Source: Brachypodium distachyon (taxonomy: Eukaryota > Streptophyta > Magnoliopsida > Poales > Poaceae). Taken from it: 64,000 nt of DNA. Below the pieces are notes generated by a model, which saw only the letters and a program-made list of their open reading frames with translations, was not told the DNA's origin and made no database searches. Shown here in pieces: positions 1 through 61,925 of the stretch (its first letter is position 1; every line of letters starts with the position of its first letter). The stretch covers positions 186,001 through 250,000 of the forward strand of contig NC_016133.3 in assembly GCF_000005505.3 (NCBI RefSeq), written 5' to 3'. The position numbers and the translations under genes are program-made.

Positions 1-455
1 AAGCATCTTCAGCTCCGCAGCAACTCCACTGGCGGTGGCATTTGCGACACCTTGCTGTTCTGCCCCAAACAACGAAGGGGAATCAACTTTCGGCAATGCC
101 CAGCTGCTCAAATCCACCCCTTCGAACTGTAGCTTCTCGACGTACGCATCCAACCAAGAGAAGTAGCTGCATTTCTTCTAGATCTGGAGGGGGAAGGGGG
201 CGAACCCTAATCGTGAACGGAACGGAAATGCCAAATTCGAGCCAAAAAAGCATGTTAGATGCAAAATCTAACCTTTCCTGGCTTCGGCCGGCTCTCGCAC
301 TTCACAAATTCGCGCCCATAGTTCCCGGTGTCCACCTTCTTGCATGTCAGCCGCACGAGCTGCTCCTCCCGCGGGCATTCGGTACAGCGGGTAAGGGGAA
401 CTGGACCGTATTGAGGCCAGGCGTGGGATGGAGAAGACGAGCTACCACGTGACAT
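1..455 (-). CDS. GRF zinc-finger protein with C-terminal membrane anchor, copy 1 (3' end cut by window)
   Basis: Two exons are visible on the minus strand: 273-455, from an ATG in the context of residues MSRGSSSS, and 1-177, continuing past the window edge. The junction is a GT donor at 272-271 and an AG acceptor at 179-178, phase 0. The first exon carries CTEC followed by GREFVKCES, and the second opens with KKCSYFSWLDAYVEKL. Together these are the cysteine and Trp-rich pattern of the plant GRF zinc finger, a domain linked to single-stranded DNA or RNA binding in other proteins. The visible part is identical to the complete copy at 30433-31004, which shows the missing end: a hydrophobic tail. 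The function of such small grass GRF proteins is unknown. Confidence 0.72.
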
Positions 456-1377
456 GGTTCTGGTCAACAAACGGCGCAGCCGCCGTGCAAGTCGTCCTCG
501 TCGTCGCCGGAGAAGAGGGGGACGGAAAATAACGGGAAAAGAACAGGGGAAACAGTCACGCGAGTACGGTGTTGTTCCGGTCACGCTCATTCTTATGGGG
601 CCAAGCGCCACGTGGAAATTATTTGGGGTCCTACCTGTAAGGGTTATTTCGTGCTCATCGTGCTGACCTGGATAAGTTGTCAGGCCCACCTGTCAGGTAT
701 CTGTTCTTTTCCTAAGCGGGGAGCTGTTGGACCCACCTGTCAGGTATCTGTTTTTTTCATAGCTGTCGTGGATAAGTTGTGAGCCCCACCCACATAATCA
801 AACTCATACTCAATGAGCACAGGTAACGGCCCACCATCAATTTGCCCTTCCGCATCAAGGTCCAAAAGTGCTTCTCAGATATTTTCTCGCGCACGTTGTA
901 GGCAGGATCCATTCACAGCGAAAGGAGCCTCGCGGGAGCGAATTCGCCTTTAAGGGATGGCCGAGGAGCTATTTTGCCGAGTGGATTTGCTCCATGTGCC
1001 CACAATTCCCCGACTGCCGTGCCGCCGCACAAGAGAAGTGCCTCCGCCGCCAACACGATACGCCTCCGCTGATACACGAATCGAGCCGCCAAGCTGGGAT
1101 TTCACAAATCACGAAGAGCCCGTGACCCGCTCGCTGGCTGCCCAATTTGTATCCGAACAAATCGTGTCGCCTGCGCCGCCAAGCTCACCACAGATGCAGG
1201 TGACACTCTTCGCCGCCGCCAGTGGAACACGCTGATGGAATTTTATGAGTGAGCCCAACCACCAACGCCTCAACACCCGGAATCGCCGCCAGCAACCGTC
1301 AGACAACAGCCGTCGTCTGCCAAACTCGGGAGAGAGAGAGATCGGCAGATTTTTTTCTCGAGATGAGAAATCAACCT
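456..1377. other. upstream region of GRF gene copy 1, no gene recognised
   Basis: The first 350 bases lie upstream of the minus-strand GRF gene and would include its promoter. No clear TATA element was picked out. A short motif (CCCACCTGTCAGGTATCTG) occurs twice at about 690-752. The rest, about 870-1377, has short overlapping frames on both strands with no recognisable domain. Since it adjoins a tRNA-primer-like site, it may be the leader of a minus-oriented LTR retrotransposon. Confidence 0.3.
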
Positions 1378-1620
1378 GGCTCTGATACCATGTGACACTC
1401 GATCCTCCACTACTCGATTGATATGTTACGGATCTGATACAGAGGGAGAATGTTCTTTGGGACCATGGTCCTGGTGCACCAGGGGCTCGATGACTGACAT
1501 GTGGCACATGTGGATGCGTGCTAAAACCAGCCCGGCGCTAATCATCCAGCATTAGGGTTAACCATGGTACAAGATGCGGCTTGTACCATTATTCTCCGGG
1601 CAGCATGGAATCTGCTTTTG
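1378..1620 (-). mobile_element. LTR-retrotransposon fragment with initiator-tRNA primer site
   Basis: Read on the minus strand, 1390-1378 is TGGTATCAGAGCC, the usual primer-binding site complementary to plant initiator methionine tRNA and typical of Copia-type elements. It directly abuts a sequence ending in ...TGTCACA, as an LTR end should. No gag, protease, integrase or reverse transcriptase frame is seen beside it, so this is a relic. The far LTR boundary is not resolved. An identical copy lies 30549 bases to the right. Confidence 0.5.
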
Positions 1621-1770
1621 CTAGGGGGAATAGAATAATAGACCGCGCGGCCAGCGAGGCTGACTCATTTTTGACGCTGTAATTTTGTTAGACCGACATC
1701 GATGGTATTTTTTACTTCCACGGTCCGGAAATAACTGACATAACATTGCACGTGTCTAGACATATTTTAG

Positions 1771-2061
1771 TACTCCTTCCGTCCAATATTACTTGTCTCA
1801 AATTTGCCTAAATATGGATGTATTTATGTTTAAAAAGCGTCTAGATACATGTAATATTTCGAGAAGTAATTCTGAAAGGAGGAAGTATATAAATACATCC
1901 ATATTTAGACAAAGTTGACTCACTTAATATGGGACGGAGAGAGTACAATTTCTTGCAAAATAGGTTGAGTTTTTACTGATAGTATATAGATAGTAGATAC
2001 GTCCATATTTAAACAAAGTTGAAAGTTGAGTCACTTAATATGTGACGTGACGGAGGGAGTA
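1771..2061. mobile_element. nested Stowaway-like MITE cluster
   Basis: The stretch opens with TACTCCTTCCGTCC and contains the inverted terminal motif three times (GGAGGAAGTA near 1888, GGACGGAGAGAGTAC near 1944, GACGGAGGGAGTAC at 2061). This is the TA-flanked CTCCNTCCGT terminus of Stowaway (Tc1/mariner) MITEs of grasses. The repeated internal text (AAATATGGATGTATTTAT and variants) suggests two or three elements inserted into each other. The same cluster appears inverted at about 25380-25700 and directly at 32320-32610. Confidence 0.6.
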
Positions 2062-2290
2062 CAGTTTCTTGCAAAATAGGTTGAGTTTTTACCGATCATA
2101 ATAGCCATACTGTTTTCGTCAATAAAAGATAATAGCCATACGCAAGGGGGGATAAAAGGTGATAAAAGAACAAGTGGGCTAGCAGCGTGTGTCAGCAGTG
2201 AGAGGCCAGGAATTCAAAAATTATTCTGTACCCGCCCATCGCGGTTTGCTAAACAGAGCGCTAAGCACCAGTGCTAATTGATGCAGCACA

Positions 2291-5200
2291 TATCGCAAGG
2301 TGTCAGAGGTTTGTCCGGGATTCAAAAGGAACGGCGGATGGGGGGTGGTGCAGCGGAACCATGGTCCCAAAAGAAGGCTCTCGATACAGAGTCCTCAGCG
2401 TCACGCCGAGATGCAAGAATCCTTGGATCTAAAGTCCTTGGAGGAGAAAGGGAAAGGTATTCAGCTAAGCTGTTACAAATTAGGCTGAATCTTCTCTTTG
2501 GCGGCCCACTGAGCTCGCGCCAGCCTTCTAGCTTTCTTCTTCTCCAATCTTGCAACACCCTGCGTCCTTCTCCTCTGCTCAGCGTCCATGAATATCGTGA
2601 CAAGGGTCGTTCAGGCGGACGCGAAGCCCGAAGATTCCTTCGCCGCATGGGTATGGCCTCCTTCTGCCTCATCCACTCCCGTGGCCAGCGCGCGGCGGCG
2701 GAGGAAAGGCCGGGACCTCCGTCCGGCGAGCTCCGTGGCGGCGAGCGCGATAAGGCCGGTGTTGTTTCGTAGTAGTGAGGCAGGCGAGGACATCCTGCAG
2801 CTTGTCCGGGGCGAGCCACTGTCGCGCCGCTCCATCCGGGTCCTGCCGGCGAGACACTACGCGAGCGCGAGCGGAGGCAGGCGAGGACCTACTCGACGGA
2901 GCGGCACTACACGCAAGACATCTAGGTTGCCGGCTGATTACTACCAGCGACCTATATCAGCACGGACACTGCGCAGTTCCGCCGCATGGTGCACGGGCCG
3001 ACGACCTCGACCCCCTCTTCCTATTCCCCTTTTTTGCTTTTTTTTCTTATATCTTTTCAAATTTATCTCCAGGAGATGTGGAATGGATCTGTAGCGATGC
3101 AGGCTCTTGATTGGGATGTGTCTGCAAACATTTCGTGCTTGCAGTGCGGTTCCTCTACAAAGACTGGGATTCTGGTTTTTTTTTTTCTATCTGGTAAGTT
3201 TTTCTTGGATGAATCCTTCAATGATTTACTTCTTTCTCCTAGATTTGATCTCTGTCATCGGAGCAGAACAATGGAGTCTGAATCTTTATTTCGTTAATTA
3301 ACTTTTGATGCCTCAGATGACAGTTACTGGAGTTTGTGCATCCATCGTTGTTCATCTTTGATAGAAGCTATAATTATCTGTACCATGTCTTATTTGGGTA
3401 TTTTCATTTGTATATTAACACCTAACCTGGCATTGTAGTACTATTTGGTTGCTAGGTAATTTGTAATTGCTTGATTCAGCATCTAGAAACTGCAATGTAT
3501 TATGCTTGGCATTTGAGGTTATTTTATTTATAGTATAATAAGAACAGAAGTAAAATTTTGCTAGTTTACCTCTACATGCAACCATGTGTTTGGATTTTGG
3601 ATATGGCTATGTTACAGCTTAGTTTTCTGAACTTGAGATGGAGACAATGGGCTTACTCTGATATAAATTCACAAAGAAGCAAGATGGGAAGTAAAAATGG
3701 GCTTAGTTTACAGCTTAGTTACCTTGAATGTTGGTTCAGCTTCCTTTTGTCTTCTAACTTAAACTTAAGGCACCATTTAACATAAGGGAAAAATACAGCA
3801 TTTCAAATATTCAACCCTATTATTCTTAAACTAATGCCCCTGCTGCTAATTCTTTGAAAACAATGAACATTGCCATACTAAATTTTACTTTTCACCTGAT
3901 CACCTCAGAATTATTTTCTACAGAGAATTGGTGGAACTCACTCAAGGAAGGCCCCAAACTGTCTTTACTTGTTACTGAAATGTATAAATACAATAATTTG
4001 ATTTGTTAAATATACGACAGTATCACATGTTTCTTATGTGCCTCAGATTGTGCATTGTACTGAGATCGCATCTCCTTTTTCAGCCAAGGTGCTCCAAGAA
4101 AGAGATATTCTTCCTTGCCAAGGAGCAAGTACAGAGCACGTTCAAGGACAGAGGAACCCTTTTATGAGAACCCATTTCCTGACTGCATTTGCTTGTCTGG
4201 GAAACATTTATGCGTTGCTGTATAGGTATGCACTGGCCTCTTGTGCTATGATACTAGACTAATTTGTTTGGAGTTACAATGCAGTGAATATTGTTTGAGT
4301 CCTGTAAATCTGTCATTTTGTGGATCACTTTTCTTCAATCATTGCTCTGGTGAACTACAGCAAAAGTAGGTGATGCATGTACATCTTATAGCTGAATAGT
4401 GTACAGTGTTATTATTTAGATCAGATTTAAACTAAATACTGAAGCTCCTAAAGAGTTACTCGTCCAAACGTGCCTTGAGATCAAAATTTTAAGATATTGG
4501 GAAGGGAAACTCCTACTTATCATAGAGTAAACTTATTTGGCCCAGCTTGCCTGTGAATATTGATTTAACCCCACTGCTTTCAGCAACTGTAGCATAGTGC
4601 ATGTATATTGAGAATCATCTTGATGCCTTAACATGTGTCCTTTTTAGTTGTACTGTATGGACAATTGATCTTCGGCTACCACCGATAGACTGAACTTATT
4701 TTGTCCAGCTTGCCTATGAATATTGATCTAACCCTATTGCTTTCAGCAACTGTAGCATAGTGCATGAATATTGAGAACATCTTCATGCCTTACATGTCTC
4801 CTTTTAATTTTACTGTATGGAGAATTGATATTTGGCTGCTGCAGTATCTAATTGTCAGTTTGAATTATCAATTTGTTCTGTTAATTGAAAACTATTTTGC
4901 AGACTCTTTGTAATCTGATCTCGCAGTGTTTGTTATCTGCACAGGCCGAGGAAATGCTCATTGACTATCGAGATAGAGATGGAAGAGGAAGACCCATGAA
5001 GCCTTTGCTTTTATTTATGATTAACTAGTTTTTCTGTATTTTTTTTGCTGTATATATGATTTGACACCTTGGTGTCCCCTTTTCGGTATAATTGGGAGAT
5101 TCTAGTATATCATGTTTCGTTATGGCTGTGATCCCTATTTGGATGGGATTGTAAGAGTGAATGGCGGATTGTTAATAATATATGTGTTGCATCAATTTTT
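2291..5200. other. long low-coding stretch, possibly transcribed; no gene recognised
   Basis: The left part (2500-3050) is GC-rich with overlapping short frames on both strands. The right part is AT-rich with splice-like signals, for example a plus-strand AG near 3071 followed by GTAAGT near 3192, and an AG near 4944. A related 100-base passage recurs internally near 4545-4640 and 4705-4800. No frame longer than about 170 codons resembles a known protein. I read it as the inside of a non-autonomous element (see the CACTA end at 5946) or a non-coding transcript unit. Confidence 0.3.
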
Positions 5201-5214
5201 GTTGTTCTAAAATT

Positions 5215-5946
5215 CTGTTGCATTATACCAATTTAATAACCATAGAAAATATTATTGCAATAACCACAAAACAACGTTTCTAATTCGGTGTGATGTTACT
5301 GCCACGGTTGCAATAACCAGAAAAGCAACGTTTCTAATTCGGTGTGATGTAACTATTGCCACGATCATTAGCTGATGCTGCATGTGATTGTGACAACGTT
5401 ATATATTCCGTTGTGATAACCTTGAGCCAATAGCAACGTCATATATTTCATTGCGATATCCTTGAGCCTACAGCGATGTCACATCTTTTGTTGGGATATC
5501 CCATGACCCTATAGCGACTTGACGTCTTTGGTTGCCCTATGCTATCGCAAAGAAATATATATTTCCTTGCAAGATCCTCCTCGCCTATAGCTAGGTCTCA
5601 CCGTTTTGGTTGCCCTATCCTATCGCGATGAAATATATTTTCTTGCCAATAACCATGTTTGCAACCAGCATACGTTGTTGCAGTTGCCGTTATAGCAACG
5701 GCACAAAACCCTTATGCAAGGCCAATGATGGTTGCTTCTACACACTATTTCAACGCCACCTTGGTTGCGAAAGGGCGTACGTTCTTGCATCGCCCGACAA
5801 AAAAGAGTTGAGATAACCTATCTCCTCGCAACCTTTACCTACGCCTCCCAACACTCGCGTTTTGTTGCGAGTGCTGACTATCACAACAAAAATGGGCTTA
5901 TAGCAACGATTTTTCCCCGTGGCCCTAGGCGGAAAAATTAGTAGTG
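5215..5946. mobile_element. CACTA transposon terminus with subterminal repeats
   Basis: The stretch ends at 5946 in GGAAAAATTAGTAGTG, whose reverse complement starts CACTACTAATTTTTCC, a canonical CACTA terminus. Upstream are degenerate repeats of about 55 bases built on TTGCGATATCC, CAACGTTTCTAATTCGG and TATAGCAACG, as expected of subterminal transposase-binding arrays. No matching left terminus was found in the preceding 6 kb, so the element is truncated or starts outside the window. No transposase frame was seen. An identical copy ends at 36495. Confidence 0.55.
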
Positions 5947-6290
5947 TAATCATGAGTATCTTCCAATACAAAAACAGTAGTACCAGTTTTATTTGCACAT
6001 GAATTATATATCAATGGACTAATCGTTGGCAATGGCTTCGGCCGCTTTGCCAAAGGAAACAAATATAAACCATGCTATTTTCAGTTATAATATAAATATC
6101 TATTGCTGACAGCATAAAGCATTTGATAAAGCTATTTTCAGTTATAATTTTCAAACAATTTCATTACAACACACTATAAAGCATGCCCCGTGCTAGTTAT
6201 TAGCAAAAATACAAACACACTGATAAGAAATCTGCAACGTGAACCAAATCCAACTCTACCCTGAATAATTGGAGGTGCAGAATTGTCTTG

Positions 6291-9200
6291 CTATTCTTGT
6301 TTCTTTTTAATTTTCAGGCTTTTCTTTGGAGGTTCAGAACTGGATTGCGATGCTTGTTCCTTTTCCATTGGAGGTGCAGAATTGGCTTGCGATGCCGGTT
6401 TGTTTTTCTCCGCTTTGATTTTCATGTCTAGGAACTTCTTTAATTGGCTACTAACCATCTCGGCGTCGCATGCCCCCAATTTCTAATCACCAAAAATAGA
6501 CAGTTCAAATACTAGGATTTAATTAAATTTTTTAATTAAAATAACTAAGAACTAATATTGGAGCCTTACGACGGGAAACCCCTCCTTGTTGGCCAAAGTC
6601 CATTCGGCGATTAACAACATGTTATGGCATGCATAGTAACCACATTTCACAGTGTCCGTTTCCGTTTGTTGGTCACAATCGAAGCCGAAGTGGTGGGACA
6701 ATTTAGGGCCATCAGCATGATCGAGGGCCCATGCCCTATGTGATTTTTCATAGAGTTATGCGGAGTTAGAAAGATTGAAGGGAAGAATTTAGCAATCGAA
6801 CAAACTTTATGAAGAATTTGAATTGTACAGAGTAACTTACTGGTCGATGAACTTCTGCATTTTCTCCCAGTTGCGTACCTTTTTCTTGGAATCAAGGTAA
6901 TAAACCTCGCTCGAGGACGGAATAATCGCGATTGTGATCCAATGATAGTAGTCGTTGTGTGCAAAAATTATGAACCGTTTGTCCTGTTGAACAACCAGCG
7001 CATCGGCCAGATAACGCAAGACTCGTACTTTAGCCCGTTCAGTCTCTTCTGATTGATTTTCCTTAGAACCGCCCTCAATTGTTTGATAAGACATCACATG
7101 TGGGTCCAAGAAGCCAATTTCAATTTGTTCTTTGCGGCATTTTTCGATGAGGTGCCTGGTGAAAGGAAATAAATGTGTTAATTAGATGTTGCATTTAGCG
7201 GTAAGTAGTTGGAATCATGACAAAGGTTCTTAATACTTACACTGTCCAGCATCTCATAAGAGAGGCGTCGAGCACCTTGAGGTTGTTTAAATTACACAAG
7301 TCCGACCGAAACACCGTGATGTCAATACCTTTGTCACTATGATCGAAACCTAGGTGCTCTGTAGAGAAGGCTATATCCTCTTCTGGGATTCTGTACGAGT
7401 CATCCTCTGTTTCTTTATCCAGTGCTGGTGGTGCGTCATTCTTGTCCTCCGCGAAACTGTTCTTGAACTTAGCATAGTTGCTACTAAATTTTCCATTTCC
7501 CCTTTCCGACTTATTTGGGGAGAAGTCAGGAGTTGATCCAAAAGAACGTGGCGCATGCATGGCATCCAATTCATCCATGAAGAAGTCACACAATTGGTTT
7601 CTAATCTCCTTCATGTCACAGTTCCCCGACATCTTATCGACAAAAGTAGACACTTTAGAGACTAGGATTTTATGACAAAATGAATTAAAATAATTAAGAA
7701 CTAATATTAGAGCCTCACCTGGCCAAGGTTTTTCCAAGGCAAATTACATTCGACGAATGACAACATCTTATGGCATGCATAGTAACCACATTCCACCAAG
7801 ACCTGTTCTCCGGAACAGATATAATCAAAGGAGTGGGACAATTTACAGTTTTTGGATTTTAGTCCTTTCTCATCACGAGCGAGTGACCATGCCCTACATG
7901 TTTTTTCACGGGATTGACCGGAGTTAGAAAGTGTGAACGGAATTTAGCAATAATCGAACAAACTTCAGAACAAATTGAATTGTGTGGAGTAACTTACTCA
8001 TCAATGAACTCGGTGAGTTTCTTCCAATCTTGACCCTTTATGCAATCAAAGTAAGTAACTCTGCTACGAAACGGAGAAAGGGCGATTGTGATCCAATGAC
8101 TGTACTCAACACTGTAGTGTGCAACAAGTATGATATCTTTTTCCCAGTGAGCCACCAGTGCATTGACCACATAATTCTTGATCTTCTGATCAGCCTCAAT
8201 TGATTGACCAGACATCAAATCTGGGTCCATGAAGCCAATTGGAATTCCTTCATCCTCGCATTTTCTGAAGAGGTGCCTAGTGAAAGGAAATGATGTGTCA
8301 ATTAGATATTGCATTTAGCGGCAAGTAGTTCGAACCATCGTCACAAAGATTCTCAATACTTACAATGTCCAGCATCTCATGAGGGAGGCATTGAGCTCCT
8401 TGAAGCTGTATAAATTCCACAAGTCCGACCAAGGCACCATGATCTGAAGATCACCATCACTAAGATTGAAATGGTGGTGCTTGATGGACAAGTTTATACC
8501 TGGCTGACTCCGGAACACTCGCAGACAGTAAGAATGTAGTTTCTGGCAAGGCCAACTTATATTCTTGATCTCATCTTCTGTTAGGAACGGCTCTACAGGG
8601 TTGTATTTCCGTTTTGGTGCCCAACTCTTGTCCTTGGCTGGCAGTTTTCTTGAATGTAGTTTTGGCTTCACTGGTTTCCTTTTGGCCTTCCATCTGCCCT
8701 TTTCCGATGACTTCTTTGGGGAGGAGAACAGAGTTGATGCAGGAGAATGCAGCGCAGCCATGTCAGCCAATTCTTTCACGAGGGACGCGAGAGTACAACC
8801 TTCAAGCTTCGATGTGAATTCAGAGTTGCTGGTGGCGCAGCGGAAAACCATGGAGTAGTCAAGATCCCTCATCTTGGTGGAAGCAGCGGAGAGTTCCACT
8901 ATGAAGCTGTTAATGCCCTCTTTTTGGACAAACCTGAAGGTGCCGCTGTGCCTCATCAATGATATGAGCAGCTTACTGATAACCTTGAAGAGTACCAGGT
9001 TTTGGACCGTGGGGTGGTTATGGCTTAGTGTTGTTTTTACTACCATCTCCTTGAGCTTGTTTTGGTGGGCAACCTCGAGCCAATGAAGACCCAAGTCGGT
9101 GACGAACGTGTCATAGATTGTGCCATAAAGGGAAAACAAGGATGATAGCAAGGTCGTTGCTGGTCTAACTGGTTGCAGCAGGACGGCTCTGGGTACGTTT

Positions 9201-12200
9201 TGCTCGTGGTTGTTTGGTGGATGAGATGTGGGTAAACAAGAATTTATTTGTTCAGTCACCTGCAATGAATTTAGCAAATTAATATTAATTGGTACAGTCT
9301 GGAAGAGGTTATAGTTTAAGTACAAAGAATAAAACAAATGCGAAGGTTCATTAGTAGTAATACGTAGCTATACTAAGTATATCGATCTGACAAGGATTAA
9401 TTACCATGGGCATGGCATCGGTCATTGTTTTCTTTAGCTTTGCATGGTATCGGCCATCATCCTTGGTGCAATGAGTACATAGATGCTCGAGGATTTCAGC
9501 CGCGTGTTGTCTGCATGTCTTGTTTTCGTCAGGTCGGACAAGTACTTGAACGAGACCACGAACCTCCTGAATATGAACAACTTCACCACGGGAAGAGAGC
9601 AGAGACAGTCCTTCTCCTGCATATGCTCTCATGGAGCTGCTATACTTGCCAGCGTGAGTGAAGATACTCACCAGCATTCTCACAAAACCATATCTGCTGC
9701 TGTTGCTGCTTTGTTTTTGGGTTACATCATCTCTTCTGCTGCTTTGTTTTTTGGTATCCATGCACAGTCGTGTGAGAATGTGAATGGCGCGTCCCTTGAG
9801 CTCTTCTTTGCATGCATTACAGTTGAGGATCATCCAGAGAGTGCTGATTGCTTGTTTGCAGCTGGAGATTTCATCCCGTAGCTTGATACTGATTTCTCCC
9901 AGATCATCGGCCGTGAATAACAACTGGGCCATCACTTGCATTGATCCATCTACTATGTCGGACCATACTACACCATGCCGAAGGGTGGTGTTGTGGAGGA
10001 GGTCTGAGGCAACAGGCGCCATGATCTTGGTGAGAAGACCTGGGGTGTCGCTCATAACTCTACAGTTGTTCCCGTCAGCTGCAAGCCTCCGGAGGATACG
10101 CAGGCCACACAGCAAGAGCTCCTTGTAGTCCTTCTTCACAGGTTTGCTGGCTGCTGAAGGACCAAGCTCTAGTATCCAGTGTTTCTCAAATTCATCGTAT
10201 AGACAGTCTCGGACGTATGGCTCGGCTATACTGTATTCTTCTAGCGTCCCGATGAGGGAAGATATGTGTTGGATCCCCATGGGGAACTGCTCCAAACTGA
10301 TGCTGCATGCAAGGCGCTCCACGATCTTGGCTGCCTGGTTCCTCGTCTCACGGTCATGTGCACCTCTTGGATTCAGAGTCTCCAGCAGTTTCTGGAGTAC
10401 TTGTTCGGAGGAGGATGCAGACACAACCAGATGTTTCAGCAGCATATGTTGCCCTCTGGCAATGTCCCGTTGCTCGCGGTAGTCCTCACTCTCCTTGCCA
10501 CCATCTTCTTCCTCCGCCTTGTGGTTCTTCTCTGCGATGCATATGGCCGTGTACAAGGTCTGCACCCCCTGAATGCAGTCAGCAGGTGAGTCGGAACCGA
10601 TCATGTCCACTGCATGTGTGATGAGGTTCCTTCCTTGCACAAATGTTGGGTCCTTCTCGCACCCCCTCTTTGTTTCACTCATGTACTTGTAAACTAGTTG
10701 GATTTCCGAGTCGTCACGATCATCAGTGGCGACTCGCTTAGCCAATGTCTTCCTGGAGCAACGCAGTATCCACCTAAAGCAGAAGATGAAACATTGTACC
10801 AGGGCAATGCAGTACAAGGTATTCAGCGACGGCACCAGGTTTGCTTCTCTATCGTTACTGGACATGTCCTGGAAATCCTGCTGTATCAGACGCCACAGTG
10901 AAAGCAGTCCGGATATGAGTATCCCAGCCAAGTAGACAAGCGCCAGAGGGAGCAACATTACGCCAAACAACACCCCTTGAACTGCCACCAGAACAGCTGC
11001 CAACCAAAAGCGTGGCATTGAATTCCGAGCACGTCCGCCAACCACGCACGAACAAACGCCCATAACCAAGCCAGTGCCTGCTTTCTTCATATATCTTAGT
11101 TTTTCATTCGTACTAACATCGAAGATCCTGTTGGACATTTCATTAATTTCCAGTTAGATTGATTAACGGAAATATATGCACGCGCGTCACAATTGAATTG
11201 CATTCGTAAGAAGTTTCAAGCTAGCTAAGCCATCACTTCTTCCATGCACCCTATACCTATCTGTCCATCTATGTGACGACGAACCGAAAGGGAGGGAGGA
11301 ACAGCTGGTAGTACACTCTCTCATCACCTGCTGTACATTCTCTTGGGTTGCGTAAGTATGGGAGCAATTATAACGACAGAACGCTTGCACGTGCATGTTT
11401 GAATTAATTAATAGATCGGCCAGTGCGGCAAGAGGTTTGGCCCCGCACGCGACTGAGGGTATCTCGTCGTCTGAGATCTCAGGCACAAAGGCGTTCCTAA
11501 TGGTATTTAGTTTTTTCCGATAATAAATACCAAAAAACTCTTCCACGCTCGTCCGCGCGGTGCGGACAATTTCCGACCGCGCATGCAGTTTCGCTCGCTT
11601 TCTCAGGGCAACTCCAGCGGGGAGATCCATTTTGTATCCGTTTGGCCAAACGGATTCCCCAATCCACTTTTGGGTCTGCCACTGCCCCAGCAAGGCCACT
11701 TATTTGGTTTGCTTTATTACTCATGGACATGCGGGCCAGTGGAGGAAAAAGGTGGCAGGCGCGGACAAACTCACTGCAAAAACGACCGTTCGCCACGATC
11801 CAAGCAAAAAATGGGTCGCCCCGCTAGAGATGGCCTCACAAGGACGGAGACGGGGGGAGGGGGGGAGGCGATGCTTTACTTAATAGATCACTTAAAGATA
11901 GGTGAAGTCTTTAATTTCGAAACCCCCCCTCACCCCCACACCAATTTCAACTCGCCTCCCAATTTCAATTCGCCTTCCTCGTGTCGAATTACTTGCTCCG
12001 TACCTGTGGCCTCAATTCCTTGCTTTTCAAACCCGCACATGGGTGGACCACAGCGCGCCGGACGTTGGGAGCGACAGCTGCTCCACGGATTGAAAAAAGA
12101 AGCAATGGCATGCACATTGAAAGCGACAGCCCTGCTGCATGTCTATTTTTCTTTTGCTGAGACGCCCTGCTGCATGTTGAAAGTGACATTTGTCCTACCA

Positions 12201-14961
12201 TAAGCCATACCTGTTGCTAAATTAATTGGCCGGTCGATCACGGCTTCATCTTTTGCGCAAAAATAAATGCTCATCCAAATTTTTGTCCGGAATTTTGCAC
12301 TGGAGTTTTGAACTCTTTGTCGAAAGTTTTAGAAGTTCTTTTAGAGAATTTTGAAGGTTCATCTAGAAAAACAAAGTCCGTTCCAAAATGTTAAAAGGTT
12401 CGTCTATAAAATTTAAAAGTTTCTCTAGAGATTTTGAAAGTTTGTCTATTTTCTAAAAGTTCTTTGGGAAAATTTGAAATGATTCTCTCATAAAGTTTTG
12501 AAAGTTAGTTTAGAAGTTTTTGAAAGTTCACCTAGAAAAACTTAAAAGTCCGTTCGAAAATGTTAAAAGATCTGTATAGAAAATTTAAAAGTTTGTCTAG
12601 AAATTTTTAAAGTTCATCTATTTATTTAATAGTTCTCTGGGCTCACGAGCTTCTCATAGAACTAAAAATTGAAATTTCTATGTCTAGATTTTAAAAGTTT
12701 GTAAAAAACTTTAGCCTTTAAAATTTTAATATCTGTCATGAAGGACATAAAAAGTTTGTTATAGGACTTTGAAAACCTCACCGATATGATTTGAAAGCGT
12801 GTAGCATTTTCGATTGAAAGTGGTGCCACCCGTGTAATCCTTGAAAACCAGTCTCCCAAAAAGGGAAAAAAAAACTAAATCCCAACAGCAGAACATTTCT
12901 GTAGTACAAAAGAAAGAAAAAAAGGAAAAAGAGAGGAAAGGCCCGACTAGGCCTGTTAGTCATTGGGCTGCCAGTCTGGTACGAGGCTGAGCGCGGTAGA
13001 GGCCGGGCGTCGGACGAGAGAGAGCGCGGGACAAGAAAGACAGACAAAAAGGGGAAATAGGAATGAAACGGAGCGTCACGCGGCAGATTTGCCAGTTCGG
13101 ACAGCTCCTGGTCGGAATCGACCGCCCAAACGCGCGTGGGCGGTCGTCCGCCGACTAGCTCCTTAATAGTTCCTCTATTCCATAAAGATTACCGTGGTTT
13201 TGAACTAGTTTTAGTTCAAAGACGCATCAATTTTTATGGAACGGGGAGTAGATAGGTATTCCTATATATAAATAAATGATATTTCCTACGTTCCATAATA
13301 GGAGTACAAGGATTTATAAACCTTTGTTAAAAAAGCTAGGTTTTGACCAAAAATACTCTATTAATTCATACTACATGACTTACAAGATATGAAATCACTG
13401 TTATATGTAAGTCTGAAAATGAATCCGGTAATACAAACATCATGACATATAAACAACATATTATTAAAGTGAAGGTTCAAGATTTTGATGATTTTTTTCG
13501 GTGAAATAGTTCAGTTTGACTGCTATCTGAGGCCAACACAAAAATAGCTCATGTAAACTTGCTTTATCCTAAAATCCAATATAAATATAGATGTCATTTT
13601 CCTTTTTATTTTGAGAACTGAGTAATTAAGTTGTGTAACTTGTGCTAGAGAAATTTATGTTCGGATACAATTTTTATTAAAGTTCTAAAACGGTGGGTAT
13701 CGAAGTTTCATAAAATACTAGAATATTTTTTTTAGTAAAGTATTTCTTGGTCAAATTTTGTTTTACCGAAACCTTATACTATAGCTAACATAATCAATTG
13801 ACCACCATTTTACTTGCTAGGAAGCTATGCACATGATAAACCTCCGATAAAACATAGACCCAGCTAGCTAATCAAAATAATAATTAAGGAACATACGTAT
13901 ACGGAGTTGATAAAATAATTCTTGGTTAAAGTCTTATTTAACAAAACCCTATATATCTAACCTGGGATATGTAAACAACATCGTTTTGTCATGGGTCATG
14001 TGCTTACATTCCAACATGCTCTCTCCTCTGGGAGTAGATGAGGCCCTTTTACTCTACTTTTCCGCTGCAGCTTCATGATACATTGTTGTCATGGTTTTGA
14101 ACATTATTTGTTTATGCTGGCCCAAGAGGTCATGCAAGTTTGTAAGTACAATTTAAGTTCTGGATGATACGATGTAATAAAGTACTTTTGACCTTTGTAT
14201 CTTGGTATTACATCTTGAACTGTGTGTGCTAGTGAGTCGATCCAGGGACTAGCACAAGTAAGCACAGACATCGAACCCTTGTGAAGGGGGATCGCTTCAA
14301 TATACGGAGCAGTATAAGATCTAGACAGTACTATATATAAAGATATGAATTCAATGTTGGAAATATACAATACTAACCCCGCTGTCTGGGAAAGGGTGAT
14401 GAATGTCAAAGACCAAAAGTCCTTCTTGCTCAGTTTAGAGACGAAGCCACCCAGAAGTACGACGGTAGTCCAAGTAAGCACCAGGAAACCTGAGCCCTTG
14501 ATGGCCATGGATAGGTAGCCCATAAACACACCATAGGTGTTGATATAATCAACCTCCTTCCATTCGCCGTCGGCAAGTAGTTTCTTGCGATCCGCCATTA
14601 ATTTCCCGCCCCCCTGAAGATTGAGTCAAGCTTGAGTCAATTAGGGTCAACCTCCAATGTGACTATTAATTAACCACCATCTTACAAACCGAAGAGTAGT
14701 CTAGTATGTATATGGATACACACGTACTCTCCGTTCCATATACAGGAGGCTAGTTTAGTTTTGTCGTAAGTCAAATCTAAAGAAAGGATTGAAGTTTCGA
14801 ATTTTGACATACATACCTTCTTACTTCCGGGTTAATTTTGACTTAGAATAAAACTAAAAAGCCCTTCTTCATGGAAAGGCTTATAGATGTTTATATACAT
14901 TAATTACCTTCTCCAAATCGTGCCCATGAAGTGGTTTCTGGGCCTTCCAGTGATCCGTCAT
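6291..14961 (-). CDS. BLE2-like membrane/ARM protein fused to two Ulp1-like protease domains, copy 1
   Basis: Ten minus-strand exons join in one frame of 1475 codons: 14908-14961, 14378-14613, 9405-11127, 8364-9259, 7998-8276, 7719-7893, 7241-7632, 6841-7155, 6570-6735, 6291-6482. All junctions are GT-AG. I start at 14961, the first ATG after the leader exon; 14598 is the fallback. Residues about 60-76 ([16 protein letters not shown]), 137-173 and 195-219 are membrane segments, followed by a helical ARM-like region to about 760. This resembles the grass BLE2 (brassinolide-enhanced) family, from memory. Two Ulp1/C48-like domains follow. Domain 1 has His near 1030 (YSHWITIAL), Asp near 1047 (TYFDC) and Cys near 1098 (ECGYYAC). 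Domain 2 has His near 1323 (YYHWITIAI), Asp near 1340 and Cys near 1388 (KCGYYAC). The tail is Lys-rich (KIKKKQE). A role in removing ubiquitin-like proteins at a membrane is inference. Confidence 0.75.
11600..11840. repeat. MITE-like insertion in intron of fusion gene
   Basis: The segment is bounded by AACTCCAGCGGGG at the left and CCCCGCTAGAGATGGCC at the right, an imperfect terminal inverted repeat common in small grass elements. It lies in the 3.2-kb intron between the second and third coding exons. Small antisense frames across it show no domain. The family was not named. Confidence 0.35.
12290..12790. repeat. degenerate AT-rich tandem array
   Basis: About 500 bases are built from variants of a unit of roughly 25-35 bases centred on GTTTGTCTAGAAATTTT and GAAAGTTCATCTAGAAAAA, all in one orientation, with no open frame. 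It sits in a large intron of the fusion gene and is repeated identically at 42839-43339. It looks like an old, decayed minisatellite. Confidence 0.5.
13169..13250. mobile_element. short Stowaway-like MITE
   Basis: An 82-base segment begins TTCCTCTATTCCATAAAGAT and ends TTTTTATGGAACGGGGAGTA. The ends are near-perfect inverted repeats of the CTCCNTTCCATAAA type found on Stowaway MITEs. It is intronic in the fusion gene and duplicated identically 30549 bases downstream. Confidence 0.5.
13988..14301. mobile_element. LTR-type fragment inside intron of fusion gene copy 1 only
   Basis: This 314-base piece is the reverse complement of about 54228-54530 and is absent from the matching place in copy 2. 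It contains GTGCTAGTGAGTCGATCCAG and ends in GGGGGATCGCTTCAA. It starts at the exact base where the perfect 14-kb identity between the two units stops. It carries no coding signal; a minus-strand frame running into it from the neighbouring exon is read-through. Its style is that of cereal LTR sequences, but the family is not identified. Confidence 0.45.
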
Positions 14962-15807: not shown

Positions 15808-16060
15808 CTGGCCAGAAGACGTGTGCTGTTTGCTCAAACTGTTGCCAAAGAGGAGCTAGCTCGAGTGATTTTTTGGACGGAACGAGAGAGGCAGGGCAGG
15901 AATCTAGGCTAGCTAGCTAGCTCTATAAGTAGTATCAGACGACCTAGATCTCGTCGGGCGCGGAAGAAATTAACTAAGGGACATGGGAATGTCGTCGGAC
16001 ATTTAATTCGTGGAAAAAGGAAGTGTGCTACGTACGTGTAGCGCGTGCCCAGCCCATACT
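15808..16060 (-). promoter_or_regulatory. leader exon and upstream promoter module of fusion gene copy 1
   Basis: On the minus strand a leader exon ends ...CTTCTGGCCAG with donor GTGAGATCAG at 15807. It has no ATG, so the first start codon falls in the next exon at 14961. The exon and about 100 bases upstream (GACGAGATCTAGGTCGTCTGA) closely match the plus-strand module at 20540-20663 in front of the single-domain Ulp1 gene. The transcription start is not defined and no strong TATA element is visible. The exon call rests on conservation of the leader and its donor between two divergent genes. Confidence 0.5.
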
Positions 16061-18412: not shown

Positions 18413-18901
18413 TGTAGCTACACATGACTGGAAGCGCGTCTGGCGAGCTTTTTTTAGCTGAAAAGGCTAGCGACATAATAAACGTTTGATGTTTTCTAAG
18501 GAAATTAATGATTTTGCAGAAAAGCCCCTCCATTCCTCCATCCTTCTCCATGTAATATATGCATGTTTCTTCTCTTTTCAATAAAGTTGGTCAAATCTAA
18601 AAAAAACCGACTGTTAATGGGTATTCATATGGGTATACCGTTAGAGCTGATTTTTTTTGGCAAAATAACCATATTAATGGTTTTTGGTATCTATTCGAAA
18701 TATAAGTATGCCATGCATTGAAGACTTTCTCATTTTTTTATTTTTTTTAAGACCGCGGAATTGATGGTCTATACGTACGTTGTATTTGCATATCATATTT
18801 GTTTGGTATTTGACGGTAGTCTTAGCTAGCTAGAGTAGTATTTCTTCATTTTTATAAGATTATTAATTATTCATACAGAACGACTGACCCCTGATTGACT
18901 C

Positions 18902-18985
18902 GTCAGGGGAGGGGCGGCTGGCCGGGGAATCAACGGTGAGTCGCCGGAAACTAGTACTTCGTAACGGCGATTTGGAGGAGGTGCG
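18902..18985 (+). pseudogene. decayed copy of the family's 5' LEK-type exon
   Basis: The sequence TGACTCGTCAGGGG, then CCGGGGAATCAACGG, then GGCGATTTGGAGGAG with a GTGCGT donor parallels the exon that starts the single-domain Ulp1 gene (20869-20940). The start codon is missing (ACGG in place of ATGG). It looks like a dead first exon. An inverted copy lies near 51980-52075. Confidence 0.4.
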
Positions 18986-20563
18986 TAGATTATATCAAAA
19001 CACATACGCATTACCATCTACAAGTTCATTAGCAATCAAATCAAAGATACTGTCCATATATAAGGCTGCATAGACCAACCAAGATGGAATAATTTAAACG
19101 TTAATATACTGTTGCAACCTTTAAAAATCTAAATGGTTGTTGATTTAAGCACTCGTAATCCCACAGAGAACCCATCAAACAACTCCCTTCTGTAGATGGG
19201 GTATCAAACCAACAGAAATTCTTTTTACTAAACATGGCATGTTGAAACAGTAAGCAAAAAGACACCAGCAGATGGTTGCAGGTTTCATATGATATGGCTA
19301 GAATTATGCCAAACTTTGACCAAAAATTTCATTGGTAATATGAGATTATTGCGGCACAAAAGATATATTGTTGGATTCGTATTGAATTATTCTTTTTCTA
19401 ATGATATAATTTTTATATACATATACTAAATGTAATTTGAATAATTGTTGGTTAAAACGTGGCACTAACTTCAATCAATATAGCAGCCTTATAAATCTAA
19501 ACGGAGCGAGTAAGAGACTTGCATCGAGAGAAACCCAGAACAACTATTTTTATTAATTGAAAAAATTTATGCCACTCCCAAAGTGCGAAATCACATGATC
19601 TACGTACAACACTCGTACGCATCCTGCAAACGCGTCGGCAGCGCATCGACACCCCTTTTTTTTCTTCCAGCCGGACTATTCCGCCCCTTTCCGTCCACTC
19701 AAACGGAAATAGCCAGTTCTTACAAGAACAGCAGGAGAGAGGGGAAAGCGGGTTGACTGATTGGGAACCACAGTAGCTACAGTGGGAAACCGATCGAGAC
19801 CAGATAGCCAGAAAGCACGCGGCGAGCAGGCCAATTAAGTGAACGAGCAGCTAAAGGAGGAGAGCTGCTAGCTTTCCTACGGGGAGCAGCTAAAGGAGGA
19901 GAGCAACTCCCACGAGACTTCCCTGTGCTCGCTACCTATCAGGTTTTTATTTATTTATTTATTTGCGAGAACTCGTTACCTACCTAACGCCGACGGATCC
20001 ATGTCGCCGGCAGAAAGCTAAGGTTTCGTGGGGTGTGTGGTATAGTAGGGTGGGGAAACGGGGTCGATTCGGTCCCATTAAAAAGGACCGGAGGTGGTTT
20101 GTTGGATCGCTGCCGGATGGCTTCGGGAATAAGAAAAGGGTTGATGCGTTCTACCCTGAGCGGACGAGCGGACCGCGCGGCGCTCCGTTTTTCTGTCCGT
20201 GGGATGAAGTCTGACGCAGAATGCGTCTTCACGGACCAAAAAACGGACGTGGAAACAAATACGTCATCCTGCTGGACCGTGTTTTTGTCCGTTTAGACCT
20301 GAACGAACTACGCCGGTCCAGATGGATCGCCCCGCCAGAGTTGGCCTAACAACCGGCCGGCTCCATCGATGGAGAGCAACTCCCACGAGGCTTCCACCAA
20401 GCTGCTGTAGCTACCTGACTGGAAAGCGCGCGTCTCCACATGCTTTAAGTATTTTCTGACGCTCTGTCTATCTACATATAATAAGCGTACGCATAGTATA
20501 TGGGCACGCGCTATACATGCACACTATAGCTAGCTAGCCTGACGAGATCTAGGCCGTCTGATA

Positions 20564-20663
20564 GTATATAAGCGTACGCATATATAGTATGGCCTCTCCT
20601 CGTTAGATCACTCTAGCTCCTCCTTGGCAACACTTTGAGCAAGAGCACACTTCTTCTGGCCAG
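20564..20663 (+). promoter_or_regulatory. TATA element and leader exon of single-domain Ulp1-like gene
   Basis: TATATAAG at 20565-20572 is a good TATA candidate. About 90 bases downstream the leader ends at 20663 (CTTCTTCTGGCCAG) with donor GTGAGAGATCAG. The intron runs to the acceptor CTCTTCAG at 20868, and the coding exon opens 15 bases later at 20884. Both leader and donor match the module upstream of the fusion gene (15808 onward, minus strand). Confidence 0.55.
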
Positions 20664-20883
20664 GTGAGAGATCAGTTAATTAATTAATCCATATGCAATT
20701 TTCTCTAAGTACTGTCGATTAATGCATGGTCTAGCTAGTATTAGTTTGGAGTAGCACTAAGTATCCATGCATATAACTACTTAAGTATTTCCTTTCATTT
20801 TGTAAGCTGCTTATTTACTTATTCGCATTGATACTAAATTGACTGGTTCAGATCGAGTGACTCTTCAGGGGCCCGGGGAATTA

Positions 20884-22189
20884 ATGGCGCCCTGGTGGAC
20901 GAATCTCAAGAAACTGTTTCGTGAGCACGACTTAGAGAAGGTAATGTATATCGACATCTTATGGAGTGTACAGTAGTACTCGCTCGATCCTTTCCCTAAA
21001 GAAGGGCATTTTAGTTTTATTCTAAAAACTAAACAAGCCTCGTGTGTATAGAATGGAGAGTACGTCCCTGGAGAGCCGTTCCTAACAGAATATGAGCTCA
21101 AGAATGTAAGTCCACGTTGCCGGGATCTACATTCTTACTATCTGCAAGTGTTCCAACGTCAACAGGGTATAAATCTGTCCATCGAGCACCACCACTTCCA
21201 TCATAGTGATGGTGCTCTTAGCATCACGGTGCCTTGGTCGGATTTGTGGAATTTATACAACCTCAAGGAGCTCAACGCCTCGCTTATGAGATGCTGGACA
21301 TTGTAAGTATTGAGAATATTTGTCATTAGTTCAAACTACTTGCCGCTAAATAAAGCATCAAATTAACACATTTGTTTTCTTTCACTAGGCACCTCATCAA
21401 AATTTTCGAGGAAGAAGAATTTCCAATTGGGTTCATGGACCCACATTGGATGTCTGGTCAATCAATTGAGGCCGATCGGAATAAGAGCAGGAATTATGTG
21501 GCCGATGCACTGGCGGCACATACTCAACGGGGGAAAGAGATGATAATTGTTGCATACTACAGTGTTGAGTACGATCATTGTATCATGATCGCTATTTTTC
21601 CGTCCGAGAACAGTGTTAGTTACCTTGATTCCACGCAGGGTAACAACTGGAGCAATGTGGCGGAGTTCATAGATGAGTAAGTTACTCCGTACAATTCAAC
21701 TTCTCTTCTTAAGTTTGTTCGCTTGCTAAACCCCTTCAAACATTCCAACTCCTGGCAATTAATTCTGTCAAAAATAACGTAGGGCATGGTCTCTCGCTCG
21801 TGATAAGAAAGGATTGGAATCCGGAAACCCCAAACTGTCCCACGACTTCGAGGGCATGTGTCTCCGAAAACAGGTATTGGTGGAATGTGGTTTCTCTGTA
21901 TGCCATAAGATGTTGTCATTTGTCGAAAATATATTCGCTGAAGAAAAGATCACCAAGGTAAAGCTCTAATATTAGTTCTTAATTATTTTAGTTCATTTTC
22001 GCATAAAATCCTAGTCTCTCTGATTGTCTGATTAATTTTGACGACAAGACGATGTTGGTGGAGTGCGACATGAAGAAGATTAGGAACCAATTATGTGACT
22101 TCCTCATGGAAGAATTGGATGCCAGCAGTTCAGAACTCGTCACATCGAAGCTTGAAGAGTGTAGTCTCGCGTCCTCAATGAGCGAATAG
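20884..22189 (+). CDS. single-domain Ulp1-like (C48) cysteine protease homologue
   Basis: Five exons (20884-20940, 21052-21302, 21389-21676, 21783-21957, 22049-22189) join in one frame of 303 codons plus stop, all GT-AG. The start is the first ATG after the leader acceptor. Residues about 20-270 match the Ulp1-like domains of the neighbouring fusion gene: [20 protein letters not shown], then GFMDPHWMSGQSIE. His is near 166 (EYDHCIMIAI), Asp near 183 (SYLDS) and Cys near 234 (ECGFSVC). The Trp that normally follows the His is Cys here, which may weaken activity. Intron phases (2, 2, 0) equal those of the fusion-gene modules. The tail (SELVTSKLEECSLAS) resembles the linker before domain 1 of the fusion protein. 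A deSUMOylase or deubiquitinase-like role is a family inference only. Confidence 0.68.
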
Positions 22190-22199
22190 GATGGCGCAC

Positions 22200-22640
22200 C
22201 AACAGCCTGGCACGAGGCTCCGCGGAAGCGTTCTTTCCTATAAGGGGATCTCTATGTGGTGCCTTCTGTTGCAAATAAAATTGTACGTCGCGGCCCAGCT
22301 GGTGTGATGCTGCCGCGGCAGCATGCATTTCGTTGTTTTTTGTTTCCTGCATTTCAATTTCTGCCATGGTTGTTATGCGGCGGATCTTTTACTTTCACGA
22401 GAGCACGAATGTTGTGTGTGCCGTGCATGTAGAACTCGATTGCTCGCACGATTCGCCGTGGGATGGCACGGCCAGTCCGGATCGTGAGACGGGTTCTCTT
22501 GCTTATGAATAAATGAGAAACAACCCTCAAATGCAGCTAACAGTTCGCTGCGCCAAAACTCTCTTGTGTCCACTGTGAATCGCGCTGAGTTTTCTGTGTG
22601 AGTTCGCGAATTGGAGCTAACGAGTGTTATCAGAGCCACG
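22200..22640 (+). mobile_element. LTR-end relic with primer-site-like sequence
   Basis: TGTTATCAGAGCC at 22625-22637 is one base away from the standard initiator-tRNA primer site TGGTATCAGAGCC and follows a stretch that could be an LTR end. No retroelement protein follows. The opposite-strand 75-codon frame (22140-22367) overlaps the last exon of the Ulp1-like gene and has no recognisable domain. An inverted copy lies at about 50478-50930. Confidence 0.35.
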
Positions 22641-24958
22641 GTTTTCTGATGACAGTGCCTGCACGAAGAATGACCTTTGTAAGCTAGTGAACAAAATTAC
22701 AATGGGACACATCATGTCACATCAACGATTCAATTCACCTCCTGTGGGATTAGCAATATATATCATCCAGGTATTGACTCTTTCGACTCTCCAAAACAAG
22801 GGTTACGCCCAAACAACCTGGCGCATTTCCAAGCCGAACCCTCTTGGCTAATCTTGCGCAGGATGGCCAAGGCATCCGGAGATGCCCGGCCCATCAAACA
22901 CGATGGCGTTCTTGTGTTTCCGGATACACTAGCCGGATGTGTACGTGTGTGACTTGTACAAGACTAGATAAACTCAGCTGAAGCGTGTGCATTGTGAATG
23001 CCGTGTGAGACGGATGTCACCGTGTGAGATGGTGCTGCACGCGAGCTGAAGAGAAGCCAAAACTGTCTGCACATCCAAGTCACCAAGTCCTTGATTCAGT
23101 TATACCTTGCCGATTGATTTGGTCAGGTTTGCTTATTAGTGGCTGCATGCATTAGAGTTAGTGGTGTGTGTGGCATAAGCTAGTCGACCCGGGCAGTTTG
23201 TTGCTCCGCGTCTAGGTGCGTAATAGCTATTCCCCGATACAAATTAATTGTCGCAGCTTTGTCTAAATACGATGTTTGACACGAAAAAATATAAAACATA
23301 TATTTCTTTGTCGCACCGAGGAAATAGAATAATTGCGGGCGTGGCAGTATACATTCGTATACAAATAAATAAATGAGACAGTAAAACATAGGGAAAATAT
23401 TTATTAATTCTCTTTTGAATTAAAAAAGTAAAATTGCCCACATGATTACAAATCTTATGCCATTGAGAATCATCTGACTTGAATCGGCGATTGCAGAGTT
23501 GCAATTTCCCGGGGACTCGCAAGTACAACCCGGTTAATTACATCTGCAGGATCAAGTCTGCAGAACACCTCCGATTAAGCTGCGATGATGGTCATCATGT
23601 GAAGTCAAGATGTTCTCCAGACATGTATGGGCGGCAAGAGTAGTCATGTAATGTGCCAAAGCCTTGACGGTCTTTTAGTGTGGAATATCCGGCTTGATAG
23701 CGGCGGAATTCATACAAGTCTCAAAGTGGTGATGAGGAGGGAGTAGTCCCCTCTGGACCTTGGGTCCATGGAAGTATCTTGATCTCTCTCTCTCTCTCAT
23801 GACCCTAAACCATAAAATCACATGAGTTGCCGAACATGGTTATGATCACAGTTGTTATTTGTATTGGTGTAATCTTTGTCATGGTTTGATGTTATGAATT
23901 GCTTATTCTCATATTTGTCTCTTGATATTATTAATAGATACACATGTTTACCTTTCCTTGTTCCCTATGTTGCTTGGATATTAATATGGTGATGTGTGTA
24001 TTAGGGAATCCGGCGGACGATTAGGTGGAAGTCTTGTACTTTGAATATCCTCTGTCTTTATAATGCTTGTATTTATTGCTTATGCCACTAGGGGTAAAAA
24101 GAATTGAAACTCCTCCCTTACCAAGTGACTAGATGGTACCCTTTGTGTGAGGTTGTGAATTTTAAACATCATGTTTCTTAAGTGCGTAATGTTGTGAATT
24201 TTACCAAGTTCGATCTCTTATCATGGAATATTGGTAGAATTTTAAACTAGGCGGACGGTTAGGTGGAAGTCCGTTGCCAAGTGCTTATGCCACTAGGGGT
24301 AAAAAGCTTGTCTAATACTCATACGCCTTGAATATTAGAGAGTAGTGTAAAAGCACTCTACCTACGAAACATGATGCCCATGTTAGTTTTATTCATAGTT
24401 AAAATCATTTCTAAGAAGTGCTAAGTATAACTGTCTTCTATGCTATTTTAGTGCCACCAAAATTATTAGAGAGTAGACAAGTGAACCCATGAACCCCGGG
24501 ACCTCTTTAATCATTGTTATCAATCACTTTTATATTTATTTAGTATTTATTACCTTGCTGTCCGGATTTTACAATTATCCAAAGACCCAAATTAAAAATC
24601 CTTTCTAATTTATTACTTGCTTATTAGCTTCCCTATTACTTTAGTTATTGAGTGTATACTTTACTTTAATTTCAGTTTTTAGTTTATTTTTATTATTTAT
24701 TTTGTGTCATATCATTGTGACCGACAACCACTTTGATATCTTGCTGGGGACACGAGATAGTTCCGTGACTGGACCTAGGAGGGCGAAGTTTGATTTCTTC
24801 ACAAATCTTCCCAAGAATTCGATAATAAACCCCGAGTCACCTTTGTGGGAAAATACTGCTACTAGCTGCACACTCTGCGCTTGGAGTCGCAGCTATCAAC
24901 GGCCCGCTCGGCAGCCCCAACAGATCTTGCCGTCTACATCCGGAAGGCGCTACCGGGT
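22641..24958. repeat. non-coding repeat DNA, present twice in the window in opposite orientation
   Basis: There are no long frames. The phrase GCCACTAGGGGTAAAAAG occurs twice (near 24085 and 24288), as does the GGTGGAAGTC neighbourhood. A (TC)n run lies near 23783. The whole stretch reappears inverted at about 48160-50500 at high similarity. It is probably the non-coding interior of an LTR element, family not identified. Confidence 0.4.
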
Positions 24959-26087: not shown

Positions 26088-26206
26088 GTCGTTCGTCGTC
26101 CTTGGGTATTTGCCGCTACCGATTTCATGTAATCTGAAATATATCTGAATTATATATATATATATAGAAGAGATAGATGGAAAGATACTTGCATGTCCAA
26201 GACATT
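26088..26206. repeat. fragment copied from the SEND1-like gene
   Basis: This matches 59882-60026 in the same orientation, the end of exon 1, the short AT-rich intron and the start of exon 2 of the flap-endonuclease homologue, with a shorter AT run. It has no coding value here and marks one step of the patchwork rearrangement. Confidence 0.7.
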
Positions 26207-26299
26207 GGAGAACAGTTTCTCACTCGATAATACAAATACACTGATCACCAAATTTGCAACGTCCTGGTTACACGGACATGATCGAACCAAATCCAACTT

Positions 26300-26485
26300 G
26301 ACGTTGTATAATTAGCAGCTTGGAGGTGCAGAGTCGGCTTGCCAAGCTTGTTCCTTTTCCATTTCCGGGTTTTCCTTTGGAGGTGTGGAATCGGATTGCG
26401 ATCCATGCTTGGTCCTTTTCCGTTTCCAGGCTTTCCTTTGGAGGTGCGGAATCGGGTTGCGACCAGGAAGTCGATTAATTGTCTT
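26300..26485 (-). pseudogene. relic of the Lys-rich terminal exon of the Ulp1-like family
   Basis: Minus-strand text reading SQPDSAPPKKSLETEKDQ in one frame parallels the tail exon of the fusion gene ([18 protein letters not shown]). The similarity is interrupted by frame changes, and a repeated segment gives two tandem half-copies. No catalytic exon adjoins it. A near-identical relic lies at 61737-61922. Confidence 0.5.
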
Positions 26486-26488
26486 CTA

Positions 26489-27379: not shown

Positions 27380-27389
27380 AACCGTCTCG

Positions 27390-32610: not shown

Positions 32611-32839
32611 CAGTTTCTTGCAAAATAGGTTGAGTTTTTACCGATCATAATAGCCATACTGTTTTCGTCAATAAAAGATAATAGCCATACGCAAGGGGGG
32701 ATAAAAGGTGATAAAAGAACAAGTGGGCTAGCAGCGTGTGTCAGCAGTGAGAGGCCAGGAATTCAAAAATTATTCTGTACCCGCCCATCGCGGTTTGCTA
32801 AACAGAGCGCTAAGCACCAGTGCTAATTGATGCAGCACA

Positions 32840-52395: not shown

Positions 52396-52433
52396 GCTAC
52401 TCCCTCCATCCCCAAAAGACCGTAAGCACTACT

Positions 52434-61922: not shown

Positions 61923-61925
61923 CTA

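Follow-up and report, generated by a model that had tools for sequence, protein, structure and literature searches.

The analysed window comprises 64,000 nucleotides of Brachypodium distachyon (NC_016133.3, positions 186,001 to 250,000), and coordinates count from its first letter. Between 6291 and 14961, on the minus strand, lies a gene, here called gene A, whose ten exons, once joined, amount to 4428 bases with 1475 codons and a final TAG, without an internal stop. All inner exon borders carry AG before and GT after the exon. The ten-exon frame given in a preliminary description of this DNA is thereby borne out to the base, its splicing being predicted. The gene joins a membrane protein of a grass family to two domains resembling Ulp1-type cysteine proteases, enzymes that cleave off small ubiquitin-like tags. 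Our interpretation is that two known types of domain were fused here in a lineage-specific event.

Exon 1 (14908-14961) codes for residues 1-18 and provides an optional coding start. It contains a start codon in frame and looks like an incomplete duplicate of the beginning of exon 2; it is also similar to exon 1 of two paralogs, B and D, described below. Frame, alignment and hydropathy place the usual start of the family, Met24 (14598-14596), and the first membrane segment in exon 2 (14378-14613). The protein may truly start at this methionine, and its first 23 residues are uncertain. Exon 3 (9405-11127) encodes the hydrophobic stretches 135-178 and 194-221 and a helical-repeat body, as judged by frame, relatives, hydropathy and a structure model. 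By frame and relatives, the membrane/helical part ends within exon 4 (8364-9259) at about residue 855 (position 8710); a Lys-rich linker and the start of Ulp1-like domain 1 (residue 894, position 8593) follow on the same exon. This exon thus codes for both parts, as had been described. The His-Trp and Asp of domain 1 are located by frame and motifs on exon 5 (7998-8276), its CGYYAC cysteine on exon 6 (7719-7893). Exon 7 (7241-7632) comprises the domain 1 tail, a linker related to that of exon 4 and the start of Ulp1-like domain 2 (frame, DNA comparison). The corresponding motifs of domain 2 follow on exon 8 (6841-7155; His-Trp and Asp) and exon 9 (6570-6735; CGYYAC cysteine). Frame and composition assign the end of domain 2, a Lys-rich tail (9 K/R in 39 residues) and the stop codon to exon 10 (6291-6482), in agreement with the earlier account of a second domain followed by such a tail. 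A probable 5' non-coding exon (15808-15860, minus strand; donor at 15807, start undefined) aligns with DNA upstream of paralogs B and D, where the same donor is present.

Exons 3-10 equal the public model BRADI_3g00465v3 (P0001, 1382 aa), with identity from residue 98 onward. The public model begins inside intron 2 (MSNRIF) and is devoid of exons 1-2, hence of the first membrane segment. Exons 1-4 of gene A align with grass relatives across introns 2 and 3. The fused frame is not a chance product, because the public model equals residues 98 on and exons 1-4 align to the relatives. At the N-terminus the ten-exon model is better than the public one, since the relatives show that the first membrane segment belongs to the protein. 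The reading frame is real and old-looking; the fused protein and its cutting activity are predictions.

Approximately residues 24-855 make up an entire protein of a grass membrane-protein family. A protein search with residues 24-863 yielded 52 matches at E 0.001, every named one from grasses. They include BRADI_3g00465v3 itself, which leaves 51 relatives (P0003-P0053); the best match besides it reached E 3e-212 at 98% coverage. The protein searches scored candidates of 0.55-1.75 times the query length sharing exact words (the best 7993 candidates in the family search), and distant or short relatives may escape them. Alignments took in 11, 28 and 28 of the 51 relatives and excluded the shorter and more distant ones. 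The nearest relatives share 49-54% identity with the membrane/helical part. Of 84 near-invariant residues, defined as shared by at least 90% of the other sequences in the 28-relative alignment, gene A has 76 (0.90; range of the relatives 0.76-1.00, n=28). The near-full-length relatives terminate at residues 840-864 of gene A in 25 of 28 cases; for the other three (P0010, P0012, P0027) the last residue was placed at 893, the end of the piece of A used. Their final residues (e.g. SLVREVKELHAMVPSTSFSG) align with a 22-residue stretch of gene A, which then continues stop-free, and a C-terminal LASLVKE motif is common to both. Triticum urartu LOC125540516 and Aegilops geniculata ACQJBY_039384, two examples of the family, show a near full-length alignment and similar membrane stretches. 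The grass relatives stop after this part, whereas the gene A protein adds about 620 residues with two Ulp1-like domains.

Hydropathy of the gene A protein indicated three membrane stretches, residues 58-79, 135-178 and 194-221, and no stretch past residue 250 exceeded the threshold; all three relatives examined showed similar membrane stretches. A model of the exon 3 body, built with 28 relatives, is all helical (predicted local distance difference test, pLDDT, 75.8; predicted template modelling score, pTM, 0.71), in keeping with an ARM/HEAT-type body. Weak HEAT-type Pfam matches occurred in some of 11 relatives, among them the importin-beta N-terminal domain, matched by 4 of 12 members (best E 0.002). 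No HEAT-type Pfam match was found in the gene A protein itself, so that the term ARM-like, used for this body at the outset, is backed by the model and the relatives but not by a match of its own. Matches of the gene A protein to DUF3810 (E 7e-4), YjbR, Corona_5a, UDPG_MGDP_dh_C and DUF7558 stayed below the cut-off and were taken as chance. The family had also been called BLE2-like, a label which we assume rather than derive. No protein among those returned by the family search carries the name BLE2. BLE2 is described as a nine-transmembrane protein (PMC6094092), against three hydrophobic stretches in gene A. Full membership in the grass family stands; the name is doubtful.

Both Ulp1-like domains retain a His-Asp-Cys triad, H1030/D1047/C1098 in domain 1 and H1323/D1340/C1388 in domain 2. 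The His-Asp distance is 17 in both, the Asp-Cys distance 51 and 48, respectively. Order and spacing are Ulp1-like by comparison with yeast Ulp1. The His-Trp, Asp and CGYYAC cysteine ascribed to each domain are thus present in both. A structure model of the unit was compared with known folds; the top 18 rows of the Foldseek list, which represent about six distinct proteins, and the top 8 of VIA were all Ulp1/SENP- or ChlaDUB-type proteases. An Ulp1/SENP fold is favoured by this low-confidence model. The gene A domains share with the Ulp1/SENP SUMO proteases (Peptidase_C48, clan CE) the His-Trp, Asp and Cys-Gly motifs, the His-Asp distance of 17 and the top fold matches. They differ in their Pfam scores below the cut-off, a shifted Gln and a membrane protein as partner.

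Several results make the assignment as a protease less certain. Peptidase_C48 (PF02902) matched the whole protein with 15.2 bits, below the Pfam cut-off of 20.7. When the units alone were compared with this profile, one of three matched at E 5e-4, and unit 1 gave no match. The oxyanion-hole Gln of Ulp1 is expected six residues before the Cys. In domain 1 it stands at -5, in domain 2 at -8/-9. The fold matches themselves rest on a model of pLDDT 43, and the amino acids of the units show little sign of constraint (see below). By sequence alone the assignment to Ulp1 is weakly supported; support for the domains as proteases is moderate. The preliminary description had named them Ulp1-type cysteine proteases; triads and fold matches agree with this, and the Pfam score, the near-unconstrained residues and the low pLDDT make it weaker than stated there. 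Profile comparison confirmed neither Peptidase_C48 above its cut-off nor, outside the relatives, a HEAT-type repeat. A CRISPR-associated NCBIfam match of the Ulp1-like units (E 0.005, one of three members) was taken as chance. No match resulted from a sequence search of solved structures with two profiles; a leucine-rich-repeat match among solved structures (E 0.51) was likewise attributed to chance.

Paralog B (BRADI_3g00460v3; 20884-22189, plus strand) consists of exon 1, one Ulp1-like unit and a remnant of the membrane/helical C-terminus, without the membrane/helical body. Its public model (P0002) omits the CGFSVC cysteine stretch; an open alternative splicing of the same DNA includes it. 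D (50990-52214, minus strand) was recognized by DNA comparison as a broken copy of B. The exon 7 DNA between the two units of gene A resembles the family tail and linker of exon 4 (score 64; reached by 0 of 2000 shuffles), and family-tail DNA lies also behind the Ulp1-like unit of B (score 59; 0 of 2000). Beyond its stop, B shows a weak similarity to exon 7 (score 26; 7 of 2000). Unit 2 and B have introns that match introns 4-6 in position and phase. The recurrence of linker and family-tail DNA in exon 7 and in B suggests that the fusion preceded the duplication of the Ulp1-like domain. Synonymous divergence amounts to 0.44 between units 1 and 2 and 0.30 between unit 1 and B, intron divergence to 0.23 and 0.22. 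At an assumed 6.5e-9 per site per year, the two splits would date to 34 and 23 million years (synonymous sites) or 18 and 17 million years (introns).

The ratio of nonsynonymous to synonymous divergence (dN/dS) is 1.06 (0.74-1.54) for units 1-2, 0.70 (0.47-1.07) for unit 1-B and 1.16 (0.82-1.69) for unit 2-B. A second alignment gave 0.99, 0.70 and 1.06, respectively. Divided by part, the ratio was 0.51-0.75 in the first part, 0.99-1.39 in the His/Asp part, 0.71-1.09 in the Cys part and 0.36-1.05 in the short tail. With ratios of 0.7-1.2, amino-acid constraint on the units appears weak. Gaps in the exons between units come in multiples of three; the exception is a 73/4 pair in the start, a stretch that could not be aligned (net 69). 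In a neutral simulation at the intron rate, the chance of no stop per unit was 0.023, 0.049 and 0.038, and at the synonymous rate 0.003-0.005; the simulation starts from present-day sequences, models no insertions or deletions and concerns units that came to attention through their open frames. Under neutral drift, stops would usually have arisen, yet the frames are open; with dN/dS near 1, it follows that the frame was kept while residues changed freely. Fast adaptive change and weak constraint fit the simulation and the dN/dS alike. Nonsynonymous divergence is 0.98-2.02 times the intron divergence, with an excess for units 1-2 (p 1e-5). This excess is no proof of positive selection, because synonymous sites exceed the introns too (p 0.005 for units 1-2; 0.17 and 0.29 for the other pairs), and positive selection is not claimed.

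The following course of events is proposed as the simplest. Loss of the stop codon in a complete grass membrane-protein gene would have extended its frame across a Lys-rich linker and on into an Ulp1-like unit, the source of which was probably transposon-borne. The fused segment of tail, linker and Ulp1-like unit would then have been tandemly duplicated, giving two Ulp1-like domains; among later copies, B would have lost the membrane/helical body, and D was broken. In the protein, the first part is predicted to sit in the membrane and to hold both Ulp1-like domains, presumably on the cytosolic side, where they may bind, and possibly cut, proteins with a ubiquitin-like tag. The product is probably an Ulp1-like protease or binding domain tethered to a membrane, and the suggestion that the fusion places a protease on a membrane is plausible. 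The complete reading, a real lineage-specific fusion gene whose membrane-held domains bind and perhaps cut tagged proteins, is given about an even chance.

Three other explanations were considered. Gene A could be a drifting chimera, transcribed perhaps, whose Ulp1-like part is useless, transposon-derived and open by luck and by recent homogenisation of copies. This is rather unlikely, since three units are open, each at a chance of 0.02-0.05 or less under drift, gaps within the aligned exon part are multiples of three, and triad residues and splice sites are retained. In its favour are a dN/dS near 1 in all three comparisons and a nonsynonymous divergence at or above that of the introns, together with the reduced state of B, the broken D, the duplicated surroundings and a public model incomplete at the N-terminus. 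Separate genes, two or more, with transcripts that terminate behind the membrane/helical part or begin ahead of the Ulp1-like part, would be in keeping with the lack of exons 1-2 in the public model, and retention of intron 4 would lead to an immediate stop (ttg taa). Both parts share an exon with no in-frame stop between them, however, and the stop of the relatives is missing in gene A. The public gene model joins the parts, though perhaps by prediction alone, and sequence of the family tail is found again between the two Ulp1-like units and in B. Such a division of the locus is accordingly held to be very improbable.

The third explanation assumes an integrated decoy or sensor, in which the Ulp1-like domains of a membrane protein outside the nucleotide-binding leucine-rich-repeat (NLR) class would bait pathogen proteins acting on SUMO/ubiquitin systems. 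Rapid amino-acid change in frames that are still open, the strongest divergence in domain 2 and the duplicated cluster would suit this role. A precedent is the soybean ULP1-NBS-LRR protein Rpp1, in which a ULP1 domain is likewise fused to a host protein (PMC9528084). Rpp1 is an NLR, whereas the gene A protein is not and carries two C-terminal units; NB-ARC and LRR gave no Pfam match in it at E up to 1. As the synonymous sites of units 1-2 also exceed the introns, a clean sign of positive selection is missing, and a decoy seems a distinctly unlikely role. Equally doubtful is the broader idea that a non-NLR membrane protein has retained two Ulp1-like domains over tens of millions of years, at a rate of amino-acid change close to that of silent sites, as a fast-evolving bait or enzyme of ubiquitin-like signalling at a membrane. 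If true, integrated domains would no longer be a matter of NLR receptors alone.

Gene A is a new architecture built from known parts. A profile of the Ulp1-like unit, applied to all 53 returned proteins, matched gene A (P0001) and paralog B (P0002) and none of the 51 grass relatives (best E 0.67), in which the same architecture was thus sought in vain. The domain union occurs in one protein only among those searched. The combination had been described as unknown, and no other protein with it was seen among the search candidates scored; most of it is, though, already held in public annotation under an automatic name. No paper was found under the gene names, 'BLE2 protein' or wording for the fusion. 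Gene fusions are not rare in grasses; 310 are reported for four Oryza species, more than 44% of them expressed (PMC9199173). Transposons are reported to have multiplied plant Ulp1-like domains, e.g. Kaonashi/KIU (PMC13317346, PMC6117577). A distant Ulp1-like remnant in the window is the point of likeness to Kaonashi/KIU and other transposon-borne plant proteases of this type, from which gene A differs by its introns and the union with a host membrane protein. Were the gene A protein made and active, it would represent a Ulp1-type protease tethered to a membrane and illustrate clearly how read-through and tandem duplication build a new protein. Open frames combined with near-neutral amino-acid change make the choice between use and drift directly testable in other Brachypodium species.

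The Ulp1-like remnant (53290-54097, minus strand) is separate from gene A, has an in-frame stop and lies near a putative transposon end. Repeats of the CAGTGGCGGT type follow it, as does, 0.8-1.7 kb away, a CACTACTACAGAAAA end at 52427-52441. This end was read from the sequence and afterwards searched with its own letters; we tentatively take it to be CACTA-like. No matching opposite end was found. Transposon-type Ulp1 sequences may thus lie close to gene A. A transposon carrying its Ulp1-like units was not found in the window, the only place where one was sought. Rfam yielded no match in the window, and nine further open reading frames lacked a Pfam match above the cut-off.

DNA comparison revealed a copy of the whole gene, C (36840-45501, minus strand), open over 1475 codons and identical to A in exons 3-10. 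The two differ by five amino-acid changes and no silent change, all in exons 1-2. Bases 1-13987 equal bases 30550-44536 at 100% over 13,987 bases and are about 96% alike beyond, a pattern due to recent gene conversion or to an assembly error. Further blocks, 95-98% alike, pair 18550-25179 with 47261-52214 (inverted) and 26198-27994 with 61636-63388. In its arrangement, the window resembles a segmental duplication whose middle part is inverted. Intron 2 of gene A contains a repeat (13991-14300; about 310 bases) that is found again upstream of the Ulp1-like remnant (54226-54537).
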